This document shows, piece by piece, positions 3,548 through 8,641 of a DNA stretch of 64,000 nucleotides (position 1 is the stretch's first letter; each line of letters opens with the position of its first letter). The notes beneath the pieces were generated by a model. It made no database searches. It saw only the letters and a program-made list of their open reading frames with translations, and was not told where the DNA came from. Both the position numbers and the translations under genes were made by a program. Source of the stretch: Janthinobacterium silvisoli (GTDB lineage: Bacteria; Pseudomonadota; Gammaproteobacteria; Burkholderiales; Burkholderiaceae_D); contig NZ_JACHCL010000001.1 in assembly GCF_014200725.1 (NCBI RefSeq), positions 186,001 through 250,000 on the forward strand, given 5' to 3'.

Positions 3548-4801
3548 ATGCGCGCTTTCTGGACTGTCATCCACCGCTGGGCCGGCTTGACCATCGCCCT
3601 CTTCCTGATCGTGGCCGGCCTGACGGGCGCCGTCACTTCCTGGGACCATGAACTGGACGAGTGGCTGAACGCCGACATCATGGACACGCCGGGCCGCGGC
3701 CCGCTGCTATCCCCATTCGTGCTGGCGAAAAAAGCGGAAGCGGCCGACCCACGGGTGGAAGTCAATTACATGAGCCTGGGCCTGGAAGAAGGCCATGCGG
3801 CGCAATTCCTGGTCCGCCCATTGACGGATGCCGCCACCGGTAAGCCCTATGTGCTGGACTACAACACCGTGTATGTGGACCCCGTCACGGGCAAGATCAC
3901 GGGCACGCGCGACTCGACGGCGATTTCGCTATCTCGCCGCAGCCTGATGCCCTTCTTGCGCCATTTGCATTACAGCCTGCACGTGCCCGCCTTCTGGGGC
4001 ACCGACCGCTGGGGCTACTGGCTGATGGGCACCGTCGCCCTGATATGGCTGCTCGACAGCCTGGTAGCGTTCTACCTGACCACCCCGCGCCGCCTGCGCG
4101 AGCGCCCTGACGCACCGCGCCACCGCGACGCCGCCAACTGGTGGCAGCGCTGGAAACCGTCATGGGTGGTGCGCTGGGCGGCCGGCGGCTATAAACTCAA
4201 TTTCGACCTGCACCGCGCAGGCGGTTTATGGGTGTGGGCCATCATCATCGTGGTGGCGTTCACTTCGTTTTCGCTCAACCTCTACCGCGAAGTGTTTTAC
4301 CCCGTCATGTCGCTGGTCTCGAAAACCACGCCAGGCCCGTATGAAACGCAACAACCAGCGCCGTATGGCACGTATATCAAACCTGTTATTGGATTTGAAC
4401 AGGCCGCCAATATCGCCAAGCAGGAAGCCGTGCGACGCGGCATCAGCACGCCGCTGGGCGGGATTTATTATGGCGGCAACTATTCCTTCTACAACGTCTC
4501 GTTCTTTGACCCTGCCGACGAGTTCGGCTCTGCTGGCATGGGGCTGTCGAATCTTTATATTGATGGGATGGACGGCAAGGTCATCGGCCAGCATAAGCCG
4601 TGGGAAGGTACGGCGGCAGATGTCTTTGTCCAGCTGCAGTTTCCCCTGCATTCGGGCCGCATACTGGGATTGCCGGGGAGGATAATGATGTCGTTCATGG
4701 GGATTATGGTGGCGATGCTGTCAATAACAGGCATTGTCATCTGGGAGAGGAAACGACGCTCCAGGCGATTGCAGGCGCATAAACTTAAAGTGCAGACCTA
4801 A
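3548..4801 (+). CDS. PepSY-associated TM helix family protein
   Basis: 417 residues. An N-terminal membrane helix follows the family signature with the HRWAG motif (residues about 5-35, ending in TGAVTSWDHELDEWLN). A periplasmic PepSY region comes next, a second helix at about 150-180, a third near 225-250 and a last near 375-400, then a basic tail (ERKRRSRRLQ). Proteins of this type sit in the inner membrane beside siderophore receptors and are thought to act in reductive release of iron from siderophores; the activity here is inferred. It is divergent from the TonB receptor at 845-3124. The ATG at 3548 follows a purine-containing stretch (ATAAAGG) about 8 bases upstream. Confidence 0.85.
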   Translation: MRAFWTVIHRWAGLTIALFLIVAGLTGAVTSWDHELDEWLNADIMDTPGRGPLLSPFVLAKKAEAADPRVEVNYMSLGLEEGHAAQFLVRPLTDAATGKPYVLDYNTVYVDPVTGKITGTRDSTAISLSRRSLMPFLRHLHYSLHVPAFWGTDRWGYWLMGTVALIWLLDSLVAFYLTTPRRLRERPDAPRHRDAANWWQRWKPSWVVRWAAGGYKLNFDLHRAGGLWVWAIIIVVAFTSFSLNLYREVFYPVMSLVSKTTPGPYETQQPAPYGTYIKPVIGFEQAANIAKQEAVRRGISTPLGGIYYGGNYSFYNVSFFDPADEFGSAGMGLSNLYIDGMDGKVIGQHKPWEGTAADVFVQLQFPLHSGRILGLPGRIMMSFMGIMVAMLSITGIVIWERKRRSRRLQAHKLKVQT

Positions 4802-4840
4802 GTCAACTTTCAAAAGTCTTAAAAAGAGCGGGCCTTAGTC

Positions 4841-4994
4841 GCGAGCCTGAGAAAACGGCCAGGGCTGCGTTGCTTGGGCTCGCCGTACATTCGTACTGTC
4901 TTCGCCCGGCGCGCCTTGCCCTGACCATTTTTCAGGCTCGCTGGACCCGGGGAGCCTTTGTTGGGGGCTTGGGCCTAGTTGGACTTTATCTGGT
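4841..4994 (+). repeat. Structured dispersed repeat, copy A
   Basis: This is the first of three related copies (others at 5604-5767 and, inverted, 7230-7389). Its main stem pairs GCGAGCCTGA (4841-4850) with TCAGGCTCGC (4932-4941) around a conserved interior with CTGCGTTGC, GGGCTCGCC, TACTGTCTTCGCCCGG and GACCATTTTTCAGG. A second hairpin (AGCCTT 4953-4958 / GGGGCT 4964-4969) follows. Copy A lacks about 11 bases present in B and C before GACCATT. It fills much of the 4802-5148 gap; the rest (4995-5148) is AT-richer promoter-like sequence without a convincing gene. Confidence 0.75.
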
Positions 4995-5148
4995 GTCCTA
5001 CTTCTGAATGCTCGGATTCAGGATTTGATATCACACATATCTGCCATCGATTTTCAGAGTACACTGGCACCAGTATTTCAGGCCCCGAATTGACGCATCT
5101 TCAATTGATGATGTACAACAAGTCGAGAGAAATGCAGGCATACCGAAA

Positions 5149-5529
5149 ATGGCAGATGTCACACACGTAGAGCTGGATGCAAAATTAGCGACCACGTCTG
5201 CACGAGTGGACCGCAGGTTCGAACTTATTGAAACGAGGATGGATGTGCGAGTAGAAGCCATCGATACGAAGTTGACGGCAGGGCTAAGCTCCATGGAGCT
5301 GCTACTCGCCCGTAAGTTTGCCGAGTTCGACGCGACACTGCACAAGTCAACAGCCGACACCGTCAAATGGGTGGCCGGCATTGTCATGGGGCTAGGCGTG
5401 ATTGGAATCTCATTGATGACATTCCTTCTCAATAATGTTCCCCCTAAAAATCCCCCTCCTCCGCCAGCTCCCGTAGTTATCTACGCCCAGCCGGCTCAGG
5501 CGCCTACGCCGCCTGTCACCCAGCCCTGA
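5149..5529 (+). CDS. Small coiled-coil, single-TM protein with proline-rich tail
   Basis: 126 residues, no family I can name. Residues 1-70 are charged and heptad-like (LDAKLATTSARVDRRFELIETR), suggesting a coiled coil. One strong membrane helix follows at about 74-95 (WVAGIVMGLGVIGISLMTFLL), then a proline-rich tail (PPKNPPPPPAP) to the end. The layout suggests an inner-membrane anchored, self-associating protein. The ATG at 5149 has only a weak AGG upstream. A strong terminator follows directly, so the gene stands alone. It lies between repeat copies A and B in a patch of lower GC than the flanks, which suggests acquisition by transfer. Confidence 0.65.
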   Translation: MADVTHVELDAKLATTSARVDRRFELIETRMDVRVEAIDTKLTAGLSSMELLLARKFAEFDATLHKSTADTVKWVAGIVMGLGVIGISLMTFLLNNVPPKNPPPPPAPVVIYAQPAQAPTPPVTQP

Positions 5530-5532
5530 TCA

Positions 5533-5557
5533 AAGCCCGCTACATGCGGGCTTTTTT
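5533..5557 (+). terminator. Strong intrinsic terminator
   Basis: An eight-pair stem AAGCCCGC (5533-5540) / GCGGGCTT (5546-5553) with loop TACAT ends in a run of T (5552-5557). It lies directly after the stop codon of the small coiled-coil gene. Confidence 0.9.
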
Positions 5558-5603
5558 AGATCCATCTATAGGCATAGAAGATGAAAAGTGCGAGCTCTTG
5601 ATC

Positions 5604-5767
5604 GCGGGCCTGAGAAAGCGGCCAGGACTGCGTTGCCTGGGCTCGCCGCGGTGCGCGTACTGTCTTCGCCCGGTACGCCTGGGTTTGACAACTCGCTGAC
5701 CATTTTTCAGGCTCGCGGCCCGGGGAACCTTTGCTGAAGGTTTGGGCCTGGTCGGATTTTACCTGGT
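5604..5767 (+). repeat. Structured dispersed repeat, copy B
   Basis: Same element and orientation as copy A. The main stem is GCGGGCCTGA (5604-5613) with TCAGGCTCGC (5707-5716). The second structure is nested: GGCCC (5717-5721) / GGGCC (5744-5748) outside, AACCTT (5726-5731) / AAGGTT (5737-5742) inside. Where A and C have AGCC/GGCT, B has AACC/GGTT, a compensated change. The remaining gap (5768-5980) becomes AT-rich and probably carries the promoter of the secreted-protein gene at 5981; I see no other gene there. Confidence 0.75.
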
Positions 5768-5980
5768 AGCTTGCATCGGAAGGGCAACTTAGATTCTGCT
5801 AGTTGTCGAGTTCGTGTATGAATTGCAGAACTGCCTCTACCTTTCTACCTTCCTACCTCCCCATGGTGATCATTACAGATTGGAAATAATGACAAAGTGT
5901 GAATATTCGCCCTGCAATATTAATTATATTAACAATGTTGACTATAGTTAACTTTCGATTCTAATTTTTTTGGAGCATTA

Positions 5981-6277
5981 ATGATAAGTATGAAAGTTCT
6001 TGTAAGCGCGCTTTGCTTTACACTTGTTTGCAGCCAAGCTTTTGGAGAATCACCAACGGGTAACGCTGCGAAACAGATCATAGTCGGACCTAAACTTAGC
6101 GGCCAACAAGTGAGTGCCTGCATAACTGCGAATGGAGCGTCGCCTGACGTCTGTGCCACACTCGCATTGCCAGTTCAATTCGGTAAAATTTCAGCAATAT
6201 TTAAAACTACCGACATAAAAATTCAAACGCATCCTGGATTGCTATTGCAGAAAAAGATTTACTATTTTGTGGCTTAA
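5981..6277 (+). CDS. Secreted protein of unknown function, 5' part of a frameshifted gene
   Basis: 98 residues ending at a TAA at 6275. A signal peptide is clear (residues 1-22, ending SQAFG, then ESPTG). The mature part has VGPKLSGQQVSACITANGASP with cysteines typical of an exported protein. TTGGAG lies 5 bases before the ATG. The last six codons after AAA AAG (6251-6256) look like out-of-frame sequence. In the -1 frame the reading stays open and protein-like to 6825, so this and the segment at 6373-6825 very likely form one protein of about 281 residues. The gene is AT-rich compared with the flanks. No family recognised. Confidence 0.6.
   Translation: MISMKVLVSALCFTLVCSQAFGESPTGNAAKQIIVGPKLSGQQVSACITANGASPDVCATLALPVQFGKISAIFKTTDIKIQTHPGLLLQKKIYYFVA
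6250..6256 (+). other. Possible -1 slippage site (G AAA AAG) at the frame junction
   Basis: In the frame of the upstream segment the codons are AAA AAG, preceded by G. A shift by -1 here gives GAT TTA CTA and joins the open downstream frame without loss. The heptamer is one base away from the classic A AAA AAG slippery sequence. No strong downstream stem is visible, so a plain one-base deletion mutation or a sequencing error in the A run is equally possible. Confidence 0.35.
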
Positions 6278-6372
6278 ATTTCGCCAATAATAATCTTTGG
6301 TGTTCAGCAATAGTTGGCCTACGCAAGGCAGCTATAGACGCTCCGACTGCGCGTAACCAACGTATTGTCCAA

Positions 6373-6825
6373 GTGTTAGAGGATGCAAAGCCTGCATTGG
6401 CTAGTGCTGCACGACATGTTTCACATCAGCTTGGCATCGAACTCGCTAAATCTCAAATGAAGACTATGTCTTTCGGCAACGGCTCTGGTGACGAAGACGA
6501 GGACCAAGGCCCCGGTGAGGCCAGCGGTAGTGGTGGATGCGATGAAGGGTGTGACGATATCCCATCCGTTGAAGTTTCCGGGAATATGGAAGGCGATATC
6601 GGTCCTGAAACACCGGCAGGCCCGGGTCCAACAGTTTCTCCACCTGGCGCCGGTCCAACCGAAAGTAAGGCTTGGGCCGCCTGTACATCCTCTGCCTATG
6701 TAGCTTGGTGGCTCGAAGACGCCGTTTGCAAAAGCATCAAAAATCCAGTTACACGTTCGCAGTGCAACGACTACAATATACGCGAATACACTATTTCGCT
6801 GGATCTTTGCAGAGAGATCCCATAG
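6373..6825 (+). CDS. Acidic, Gly/Pro-rich C-terminal part of the frameshifted secreted protein
   Basis: 150 residues from a GTG at 6373, but the frame is open and protein-like back to about 6202 (for example DLLFCGLNFANNNLW and CSAIVGLRKAAIDAP), and there is no ribosome-binding site at 6373. This is therefore most likely the downstream half of the gene starting at 5981. It has an alpha-helical start (LASAARHVSHQLGIELAKSQ), a very acidic linker (GDEDEDQGPGE), a Cys-containing patch (GGCDEGCDD), a Gly/Pro linker and a compact C-terminus with four cysteines (WAACTSS, DAVCKS, RSQCND, LDLCREIP). The odd cysteines suggest disulfides in the periplasm or outside. Function unknown. Confidence 0.5.
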   Translation: MLEDAKPALASAARHVSHQLGIELAKSQMKTMSFGNGSGDEDEDQGPGEASGSGGCDEGCDDIPSVEVSGNMEGDIGPETPAGPGPTVSPPGAGPTESKAWAACTSSAYVAWWLEDAVCKSIKNPVTRSQCNDYNIREYTISLDLCREIP

Positions 6826-6832
6826 TTTAAGC

Positions 6833-6866
6833 AAACCCTGCCTCATTGTTTTTTTCGGCAGGGTTT
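6833..6866 (+). terminator. Intrinsic terminator
   Basis: A perfect ten-pair stem AAACCCTGCC (6833-6842) / GGCAGGGTTT (6857-6866) with a T-rich loop follows the stop codon of the frameshifted gene. The 3' T run is short (TTTCTTGG). Confidence 0.75.
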
Positions 6867-6893
6867 CTTGGTTTAAAATTTAAAGGTGGTTTT

Positions 6894-7148
6894 ATGTTCA
6901 CAATTAAAGCAATTATAAAAGATGATGTAAATGTTCAGATAGATGGAAAAAATTTCACCAGTCGCCAAGAGATAGTAAATAAATTGAGTAATTTACTCAA
7001 AAATTATCCTGACGCAGCTCTGCATATTGAAGCAGATAGCAATGTATACTTCAGGGCAATAGGCAATATAATTTATGCCTCGCAACAAGTTGGAGTTCCG
7101 AAAAAAAATATATCGATTACTACGCCAGAAGGCAGTATTTTTAAATAA
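6894..7148 (+). CDS. Stand-alone ExbD/TolR-like periplasmic domain protein without membrane anchor
   Basis: 84 residues from an ATG at 6894 preceded by AAAGGTGG; the frame is open further upstream but that part overlaps the terminator and is not needed. The sequence follows the C-terminal domain of ExbD/TolR: VQIDGKNFTSRQEIVNKL, then NYPDAALHIEADSNVYFRAI, then ASQQVGVPKKNISITTPE. ExbD proteins normally start with a membrane helix carrying a catalytic Asp that couples proton flow to TonB; here that part is absent. Without signal peptide or helix it should be cytoplasmic. The region is strikingly AT-rich (about 25% GC over 6901-6960), so it is probably acquired. Possible roles include a domain decoy or a fragment of a lost gene; none is demonstrated. 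Confidence 0.6.
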   Translation: MFTIKAIIKDDVNVQIDGKNFTSRQEIVNKLSNLLKNYPDAALHIEADSNVYFRAIGNIIYASQQVGVPKKNISITTPEGSIFK

Positions 7149-7229
7149 GCACTGCAGAAATAAAGATCCAGGAAAAGTTTTACCATTTCAACACAACCTC
7201 ATCCATCAAAAATCCAAGCAGAGCAAAAG

Positions 7230-7389
7230 CACGCCCCAGCCCCCCCGCAAAGGCTCCCCGGGCCCAGCGGGCCTGAAAAATGGTTAGCGAATTGTCAGAC
7301 CCAGGCGCGCCGGGCGAAAACAGTAAGCACCAAGGCGAGCCCGGGCAACGCAGCCATTGCCGATGTCCATGCTCACCACTCAGGCCCGC
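7230..7389 (-). repeat. Structured dispersed repeat, copy C (inverted)
   Basis: Read on the minus strand it matches copies A and B: GCGGGCCTGA (7380-7389 on the complement), a CTGCGTTGC interior, TACTGTTTTCGCCCGGCGCGCCTGG, an ACCATTTTTCAGG block and TCAGGCCCGC (complement of 7267-7276). The main stem is GCGGGCCTGA/TCAGGCCCGC, a compensated change from A (GCGAGCCTGA/TCAGGCTCGC). The GC-rich AGCC/GGCT hairpin follows at about 7230-7260. It occupies most of the 377-base gap before the MscS gene. Confidence 0.75.
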
Positions 7390-7525
7390 TATCAAGGCCC
7401 GCACTTCAGCTCATCAGCTTATCGGTACGGCAACGTACATCCTGATCCCGCCCTCTCCCCGTAAAATAGCCAGTTAAGCATCAATTACCGACATCCATCC
7501 CACCATCACGAAGGAGTTTTCGCCT

Positions 7526-8641
7526 ATGGATCTCACCACGTTTCATTCTCTGATGGGCGGCCCGCTGCGCTCCGCCCTGACCGTGCTGGTTTCTGCGCTA
7601 CTGGTCACTCTGGTCGCCATCGGCGTACACCGCGCCGGCATCAGCTTGCTGAAAAGGCTGGCCAATGGCCGCCCTTTTACTACCACTGTTACGCGCGTGG
7701 CGTTTCGTTCCAGCCAGCTGTGCGTGGTCATTTTCGGCTTGCGCATGGTGCTGGCCGGGGCGCCGGATGACACGCCGGGCCTGGTTGCCATGTCGCACCT
7801 GGCCAATGTGGCGCTGATCGTCGGCCTGACCTGGCTGGCCATGCAATGCATACAGTCGCTGAGCATCACTATTTCTGACATCAATCCGGTCGACATGGCT
7901 GACAATATCCGGGCGCGGCGGTTGATCACGCAAGCCCGCGTGCTCACGCGCAGCGCGCATGCGGTGGTGGTCATGCTGGGGATTTCCTTCGTGCTGCTGA
8001 CCTTGCCTGGCGCGCGCCAGATCGGCGCCAGCCTGCTGGCCTCGGCCGGCGTGGCGGGCCTGGTGGCCGGTATCGCGGCGCGTCCCGTACTGGGCAATTT
8101 CATTGCGGGGCTGCAAATCGCTTTTTCGCAGCCTATTCGCATCGATGACGTGCTGATCGTCAATGGCGAATGGGGCAAGGTCGAGGAAATCAAGGGCACT
8201 TATGTGGTGGTGCGCGTGTGGGATGAGCGCCGCCTGATCGTGCCGCTACAATGGTTTATAGAAAATCCATTCGAGAACTGGACCCACAGTTCCACGATGC
8301 TGCACGGCACCGTGTTTCTGTGGCTGGACTTCAGCATCCCGCTCGAACCGCTGCGCGCGGAACTGAGGCGTATCTGCGAAGCCGCGCCCCAGTGGGATGG
8401 CCGCGCCTGCACGGTGGTCGCATTCGACGCCAATGAACGGGCCATGCGCGTGCGCTTCCTGGTCACCGCAGAGAATTCGGACGAGGTGTTTGCCTTGCGC
8501 TACCTGGTGCGCGAACAGATGCTGGCATTTATTACGGCCAACTATCCGCATGGCTTGCCGCGCGTGCGCGCCACGCATGATCCGATCAGCATGCAAGATA
8601 TGCAGGCAGAAAACGACAAGGTTTCGTTCGAGAAAGCCTGA
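7526..8641 (+). CDS. Mechanosensitive ion channel, MscS family
   Basis: 371 residues. Several N-terminal membrane helices are followed by the pore helix and beta domain signature of MscS: GASLLASAGVAGLVAGIAAR, then a segment with IAFSQPIRIDDVLIVNGEWGKVEEI and RVWDERRLIVPLQWF. The family opens under membrane tension to release solutes on hypo-osmotic shock. GGAG stands before the ATG at 7526. It is followed after 85 bases by a cation/proton antiporter in the same direction, so the two may form an osmotic and ion homeostasis unit, although a hairpin separates them. Confidence 0.9.
   Translation: MDLTTFHSLMGGPLRSALTVLVSALLVTLVAIGVHRAGISLLKRLANGRPFTTTVTRVAFRSSQLCVVIFGLRMVLAGAPDDTPGLVAMSHLANVALIVGLTWLAMQCIQSLSITISDINPVDMADNIRARRLITQARVLTRSAHAVVVMLGISFVLLTLPGARQIGASLLASAGVAGLVAGIAARPVLGNFIAGLQIAFSQPIRIDDVLIVNGEWGKVEEIKGTYVVVRVWDERRLIVPLQWFIENPFENWTHSSTMLHGTVFLWLDFSIPLEPLRAELRRICEAAPQWDGRACTVVAFDANERAMRVRFLVTAENSDEVFALRYLVREQMLAFITANYPHGLPRVRATHDPISMQDMQAENDKVSFEKA

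Follow-up and report, generated by a model that had tools for sequence, protein, structure and literature searches.

What kind of sequence recurs in folded form at three neighbouring places of a Janthinobacterium silvisoli genome, and what could have put it there? The question arises from a 64-kb stretch of DNA (the window, by which we mean the whole of the 64,000 nucleotides analysed), in which an earlier note had pointed out a three-copy repeat with compensated stems. In our analysis, the three copies, here called A, B and C, are highly probably non-autonomous mobile hairpin elements, i.e. miniature inverted-repeat transposable elements (MITEs), related to the Correia repeat enclosed elements and Neisseria miniature insertion sequences (CREE/NEMIS) of Neisseria. 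The homology of the core, the copy number, the paired structure, the polymorphism and, for a short form of the element, the anchoring at stop codons in a fixed orientation are all observed directly.

The three copies in the window

The sequence and a repeat search agree with the earlier note in placing three copies with a common order of blocks, A and B running in one direction and C in the opposite one. Throughout, strand a denotes the strand that elsewhere follows the stop codon of a gene, and strand b its complement, which is antisense to that gene. The positions given earlier hold, but the elements extend further 5' than was noted, with A starting at approximately 4827. The compensated changes in the long-range stem can be read off the arms: in copy A, GCGAGCCTGA at 4841-4850 pairs with TCAGGCTCGC at 4932-4941, in copy C, GCGGGCCTGA at 7267-7276 pairs with TCAGGCCCGC at 7380-7389, and in copy B, GCGGGCCTGA faces TCAGGCTCGC with one G-T pair, just as had been claimed. 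Likewise, the second hairpin varies from AGCC/GGCT in A to AACC/GGTT in B, the reading LTIFQARW is found both in A (as the translation of CTGACCATTTTTCAGGCTCGCTGG) and at C, there within a minus-strand frame of 74 aa, and the AT-rich patch between B and C has a GC content (Table 1) well below the 0.603 of the whole window.

Copy number, covariation and spread

A blastn search with copy A returns 20 matches in its own 5.9 Mb genome, the best non-self match having an E value of 8.6e-44. The covariation set comprised 16 of these, aligned on strand b, leaving out two shortened copies (L003, L018) and the window's B and C (L005, L006), which are internally rearranged. In this alignment, the core is common to all copies, while the long stem consists of differing yet pairing bases, with 88.2% of cells paired. 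Both sides have changed in 16 of 31 pairs, compared to 7.8 in shuffles and 4-9 in slid controls, and in none of 500 shuffles did any of the five measures used come out as high as in the real alignment. From the own-genome copies only, we built R1, a covariance model that covers the 84-nt core; it gives 25 matches at E<=0.01 in that genome, missing copy C, which is detected by blastn alone, and 43 and 21 matches at 1e-5 in two complete genomes of the genus.

The search of related genomes with such a model, which the earlier note had proposed, takes the element far beyond this locus. Namely, R1 matches at least 79 of 145 genomes and 28 of 44 genera in the family (with up to 31 candidates scored per genome), at least 102 of 399 sampled genomes and 51 of 159 genera in the order, and at least 34 of 369 genomes and 28 of 272 genera in the class, these counts being lower bounds, as filtering was stricter in the large searches and few candidates were taken from each genome. 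The number of matches per genome varies within the order from none up to 81. The matches listed by an exact pattern scan fall in Janthinobacterium, Massilia, Duganella, Herminiimonas, Herbaspirillum, Noviherbaspirillum, Telluria, Uliginosibacterium, Aromatoleum, a Neisseriaceae bacterium and Cardiobacterium hominis; one analysis step took as its input a selection of 96 element loci. None of the outcomes that the earlier note had named as refuting it came about: the copies are many, the covariation is retained in a larger alignment, and no conserved open reading frame explains the sequence.

What most copies keep is an asymmetric core of approximately 60 nt, reading on strand a GCGTTGC, a short variable stem, a hairpin GCCGTAC/GTACTGTCT and GCGCCTTGCC. 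The inner stem and the core remain paired in copies of many families; the long arms outside the core pair as well, yet they differ among lineages and copies. In Janthinobacterium, many copies are short, with a GAGCGCCTGAG-like arm, while the long copies, including A, B and C, have an added GCGGGCC-GAG-CGCGGGCCTGAG-like arm, a split made by simple patterns that differ between analyses, such that a small number may be assigned to the wrong form. Janthinobacterium sp. 344 carries the long form as a tandem array with a period of 228 and 3.8 copies (L309:5901-6749).

No replication-strand bias of the copies was apparent by eye in the strand list of complete-genome matches. In Rfam, also at lax thresholds, no family scores above its gathering score at any element, the two over-threshold matches being tRNAs. 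RF02278 (Betaproteobacteria_toxic_sRNA) was rejected as the identity of the element, its nine genome matches all lying away from elements; eight genome matches of this family exceed the cut-off, and five are clustered in 27 kb (G000:C2:496090-522563). Cardiobacterium lies outside Burkholderiales, and C. hominis carries a single strong copy (L295, 71.2 bits) 7 nt past a TAG stop. Finally, L400-L408, from class-level genomes, are R1-scoring hairpins with GTCCGCTAYGG or GCGCCCG-AGGG arms and no stop codon near, and several of these genomes hold many R1 matches.

Kinship with the Correia repeat

The kinship is most direct at locus L239 of family f44, whose arms, TATAGTGGATTAAATTTAAACC...TTTAAATTTAATCCACTATA, we take to be the Correia repeat. 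In Correia elements a 26-bp terminal repeat, TATAGTGGATTAA..., stands at both ends (variants in PMC5039591 and PMC9778887), and one end of L239 equals a variant printed there with zero mismatches. Among the 31 f44 elements, a printed Correia end is present at up to five mismatches on the strand-a 3' side in 30 and on the 5' side in 22, from which we infer that f44 is a Neisseria-type family. R1 gives 31 matches of 57.3-73.7 bits and one of 33.5 in the 31 f44 loci, which had themselves been retrieved by R1. Among the loci before L409-L436, the terminal repeat at up to five substitutions is confined to L227, L237 and L239; f44 has it too.

The core carries the kinship over to Janthinobacterium. 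Pairwise comparison of copy A with L239 gives 74.6% identity over 67 nt (E 8e-9), and a short Janthinobacterium copy reaches 79.1% with the same locus. What is more, TAACAAAA is present in the arm of the Massilia and Herbaspirillum copies L290, L347, L359, L330 and L354, as in one printed Correia variant. Correia elements are described as 104-108 or 153-157 bp long (PMC9778887); the short form would measure approximately 105-110 bp if some 11 nt are added on each side of the 84-nt model, and the long form is longer, with ends that are not fixed. Correia elements are also described as having TA ends and a target-site duplication (PMC2229807), and in the short Janthinobacterium copies an enrichment of TA is seen outside the model at -12 and -11 and, weakly, at +14. 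Searches of one open-licence library returned no report of Correia-type elements outside Neisseria, although one may be in print elsewhere.

Anchoring at stop codons

None of the 122 Janthinobacterium copies examined lies inside a called gene, the gene calls for context having been made with a codon model for which 37 frames of the window served as training set. An upstream gene of the same strand turns its 3' end to the start of strand a in 85 of 89 short copies, and 77 of 89 lie within 20 nt of such an end, the most frequent distances being -4 to 1 and 6 to 11 nt. On their other side stand 42 gene 3' ends and 47 gene 5' ends. Between codirectional neighbours, short copies have the strand-a orientation in a ratio of 45:2, for which the binomial value of 1.6e-11 is too small, as orthologous copies of different species were each counted. 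A plain open-frame test gives 52 versus 22 among 70 copies of the genus and 29 versus 11 among 50 from elsewhere. The stop-codon anchoring of the short Janthinobacterium copies with its 45:2 orientation bias is a new observation of this analysis, and it is a sharp, testable pattern.

The long form, to which the window's copies belong, is anchored more loosely: 29 of 33 long copies have an upstream and 24 of 33 a downstream gene 3' end, at distances of 2 to 717 nt. Could the anchoring of the short form arise solely from insertion at TA followed by survival? This is disfavoured by the opportunity as measured on one 64-kb window, where 39 of 365 non-coding TA dinucleotides lie in or up to 20 nt behind a stop codon, versus the 77 of 89 short copies.

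Mobility and insertion junctions

At the spacing between two genes that we read as tsf and truA, 11 of 30 loci are filled, 10 are empty and nine are unread, mostly because the script dealt with a single strand; three filled loci carry two or three tandem units. At the tsf site of two different genomes of the genus (L151 and L157), the GGCGAG side of the apical hairpin is replaced by a near-identical odd stretch, AAGGTGGACGCCAT and AAGGTGAACGCCAT, respectively. At a second site (30 loci, two unread), the element is present, truncated, repeated in tandem with two to four units, or absent, and further filled/empty pairs between genomes G123 and G048 have the element mostly at the stop codon. At eleven junctions read by eye, the C-terminus of the gene is identical in seven, while a single residue differs at G123:5042516 and the ending is another one in three (G123:411939, G123:615245 and G048:3336557). 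Two junctions have a repeat that is a candidate target duplication, GCTAA in the case of G123:5089065 and GCACGCTA in that of G123:4388624. The earlier note had offered a structured RNA, an element like MITEs or the repetitive extragenic palindromes (REPs), and a protein-bound DNA hairpin; of these, the MITE-like reading is borne out by dispersal in many copies outside genes, differences in presence and in tandem number, and the Correia match.

The neighbourhood of the trio

The trio is flanked by a PepSY_TM gene on the side of A and an MscS-type channel gene on the side of C. The place where the PepSY_TM gene ends was compared in 28 of 30 loci, one being the window itself, which leaves 27 loci of relatives, whose stretches stop short of the place of copy C. 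Among these, G165, the closest, is the only one with copies A and B, the 126-aa frame between them and the first short frame of the GC-poor interval, and that short frame is found in G165 only; L128 has a 50-nt match to copy B only. Since G165 alone shares the A-B part, the three copies seem to form a local cluster of recent date. Within the GC-poor interval, an 84-aa frame at 6894-7148 of the window has an ExbD/TolR match (PF02472, E 5.5e-7), and two other scanned frames have no match in Pfam.

Table 1. Location of the element copies, their cores and the adjoining features, in positions of the window.
Feature	Position	Strand	Remarks
Copy A, long form	4827..4995	+	strand a = +; starts approximately 25 nt past PepSY_TM stop (4801); L039
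Copy A, core	4850..4934	-	model R1 (strand b), 88.2 bits; G000:C1:190850-190934
Copy B, long form	5590..5775	+	blastn, repeat search
Copy B, core	5613..5698	-	R1, 31.5 bits, E 0.0015; G000:C1:191613-191698
Copy C, long form, inverted, core diverged	7230..7405	-	blastn, G000:C1:193235-193386, E 2.5e-23
PepSY-associated TM protein gene, stop ahead of copy A	3548..4801	+	PF03929, E 1.7e-55
126-aa reading frame between A and B	5149..5529	+	Pfam scan: no match
GC-poor interval between B and C, short frames	5776..7229		GC 0.426
MscS-type channel gene, downstream of C	7526..8641	+	PF00924, E 2.6e-13

Origin of the paired arms

How strongly does the covariation argue for selection on structure? Outside the model, pairing is better between the two flanks of one copy than between flanks taken from different copies, a score of 6 or more being reached by 19 of 90 short Janthinobacterium copies (1.5% when mismatched) and by 28 of 83 copies from elsewhere (2.6% when mismatched). 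Where the stop codon lies inside an arm, the far arm of some copies, read by eye, repeats coding bases in inverted form, e.g. CTGGAAGC in L054/L059. Such inverted gene ends are also found in L046, L060, L035 and L101, the last with GCTGGGCG, which its own-genome counterpart L030 shares incompletely; L029 and L093 have the stop codon in the arm and yet a far arm without inverted coding bases. This suggests that one arm may have been copied onto the other, either at insertion or later by template switching, a process described in PMC8794818 and PMC3820800, which in its palindrome-extending form can create compensated changes (PMC8794818).

It is accordingly worth asking whether the covariation of the arms could be mainly mutational, with template switching copying an arm together with the adjoining gene end in the absence of structural selection. 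We regard this as possible, if on balance somewhat improbable. It is favoured by the inverted coding bases and by pairing that is specific to each copy. That said, strand-symmetric mutation does not predict the excess of G-T over A-C on strand b, which is approximately 4 to 1 in other genera, and the inner stem and core keep their pairing across many families. The step from covariation to selection for an RNA structure is weakened both by template switching and by a wobble bias that points to the strand opposite to the adjacent mRNA. The element lends itself well to telling selection on a hairpin apart from template-switch mutation.

Strand bias and the terminator question

Counted in fixed pairs on strand b, G-T outnumbers A-C 75 to 24 and 78 to 4 in Janthinobacterium and 62 to 16 and 48 to 10 in other genera, which is a tendency rather than a test on independent events, since the rows are related and one pair is heavy (the two outermost pairs, ambiguous in alignment, are omitted, and pair 11-84 alone accounts for 45 of 162 G-T cells in the alignment of copies from many families). 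As a tendency, this would favour a folded DNA strand or an antisense RNA over a hairpin in the mRNA; a role as an mRNA hairpin leaves the bias unexplained, because the wobble pairs favour the strand that is antisense to the gene. By RNAfold stability, strand b is favoured in 89 of 120, but we prefer the fixed-column counts because the minimum free energy structures hold more G-U pairs on strand a (416/4727) than on strand b (307/4678).

Might selection for termination instead have kept the elements as a family of intrinsic terminators that share a conserved loop? They do stand behind stop codons, an A-tract and a T-tract flank the core in Janthinobacterium, convergent neighbours are common, and a T-run of at least five is found at the strand-a 3' end of 31 of 33 long copies versus 0 of 33 at the strand-b end. 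In the short form, however, such T-runs are as common on strand a (43/90) as on strand b (39/90), offering no asymmetry to explain the orientation, and outside Janthinobacterium they amount to just 5 and 8 of 83, respectively. Moreover, one well-sampled site lies, by our own reading, between codirectional genes that are approximately 23 nt apart when empty, and empty orthologous sites are frequent. A directional terminator role may therefore apply to the long form, but it is poorly supported for the whole family, for which we consider this explanation unlikely.

Very unlikely, in our view, is a class of trans-acting or cis-regulatory structured RNA that is not a mobile repeat: strong covariation and conserved unpaired core positions speak for it, while match numbers from none to 81 per genome in the order, tandem copies, empty orthologous sites and the lack of any Rfam family at threshold on the elements speak against it. 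REPs are palindromes of 20-40 nt with a GTRG foot and another consensus, while the present elements measure 84 nt or more and their alignments contain no conserved GTRG foot. That the elements are of REP or REPIN type, moved by a REP-associated tyrosine (RAYT, Y1) transposase, we hold to be barely credible, even though palindromes near stop codons recall a part of E. coli REPs (PMC12306157) and Y1_Tnp proteins are common in the family, being found in 132 of 145 genomes, element-free ones included: a Y1 transposase is not required, because G139 (15 copies) and G122 (18 copies; a draft, 93% complete) carry many copies and no Y1_Tnp match was found in either.

Weighing the evidence

Returning to a mobile Correia-type element with directed anchoring, a number of observations weigh against it. 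At up to five mismatches, the window contains no Correia terminal repeat, and because it is missing, the window's copies are Correia relatives by their core and not CREE proper. No transposase for the element was found, and apart from the two candidate target duplications above, which are longer than TA, no repeats were readable by eye at the junctions of filled/empty pairs. In the Neisseria-type copies, stop anchoring is not seen (6/31 on the strand-a side and 11/31 on the strand-b side). On a set made of 69 of 80 loci listed by the pattern scan (omitting six repeats of LM6 and five loci with the element near the end) and 10 class-level loci, the open-frame test, from which identical elements and those with less than 340 nt per side were excluded, gives just 36 versus 20 of 84; named short copies give 32 versus 16 of 50 and class-level ones 2 versus 0 of 10, while the long copies give 2 versus 4 of 24. 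L400-L408 may represent other or sister families. The supply of stop codons alone cannot set the orientation, because the arms are nearly symmetric and only the core is asymmetric. To these one should add the overstated binomial value, the wobble bias and the one-sided T-runs of the long form.

How would such an element work? A putative enzyme would move it in trans, acting on the asymmetric core as folded strand b, and copies would survive at gene 3' ends because an arm shares bases with the stop codon or provides it. The element would then be transcribed with the gene, and its strand-a transcript would form a long hairpin close behind the stop codon, probably a substrate of RNase III that alters the fate of the mRNA, as has been proposed for NEMIS (PMC2229807). 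Alternatively, the hairpin could stall ribosomes, as reported for E. coli REPs within 15 nt of a stop codon (PMC12306157). A bolder and rather doubtful proposal is that an old and widespread Correia branch evolved directed insertion, in that the enzyme reads the folded antisense core and places the element one way round at stop codons; such insertion would copy the last bases of the gene into the far arm. If this were true, a new copy would keep the protein almost intact and add a hairpin to its mRNA, and the mobile element would be one able to recognise the end of a gene.

Comparison with known systems

Several known systems invite comparison. The integron attC site is a palindrome at the 3' end of a gene of which the folded antisense strand is active; the Janthinobacterium elements, in contrast, are dispersed and not arrayed, and their alignments have no conserved outer boxes. 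ERIC, IRU and RU-1, which have different hosts, namely enterobacteria, are MITEs of approximately 100-200 bp with long stem loops, grouped with Correia/NEMIS in PMC2229807. The REPs and bacterial interspersed mosaic elements of E. coli resemble our elements in that a part of them lie close behind stop codons, namely 446 of 4,072 within 15 nt (PMC12306157), or 260 of 496 close to stop codons in an earlier study cited there; unlike our elements, REPs are short, and the Janthinobacterium elements show no dependence on RAYT.

The closest likeness is to CREE/NEMIS themselves, with which the elements share the core sequence, the core hairpin, the many intergenic copies and the polymorphism of filled and empty sites, R1 retrieving elements with printed Correia ends as well; the short form may also be of similar length, if the 11 nt or so on each side of the model are counted in. 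They differ in that the terminal repeat is unconserved in Janthinobacterium, the short form there is anchored at stop codons in a fixed orientation, and the long form has an extra outer arm. The long form in Neisseria, for its part, has an IHF site. The papers cited here describe Correia elements from Neisseria; with the core shared across many families of Burkholderiales, they become an old and wide family, the mover of which can be sought by comparison.

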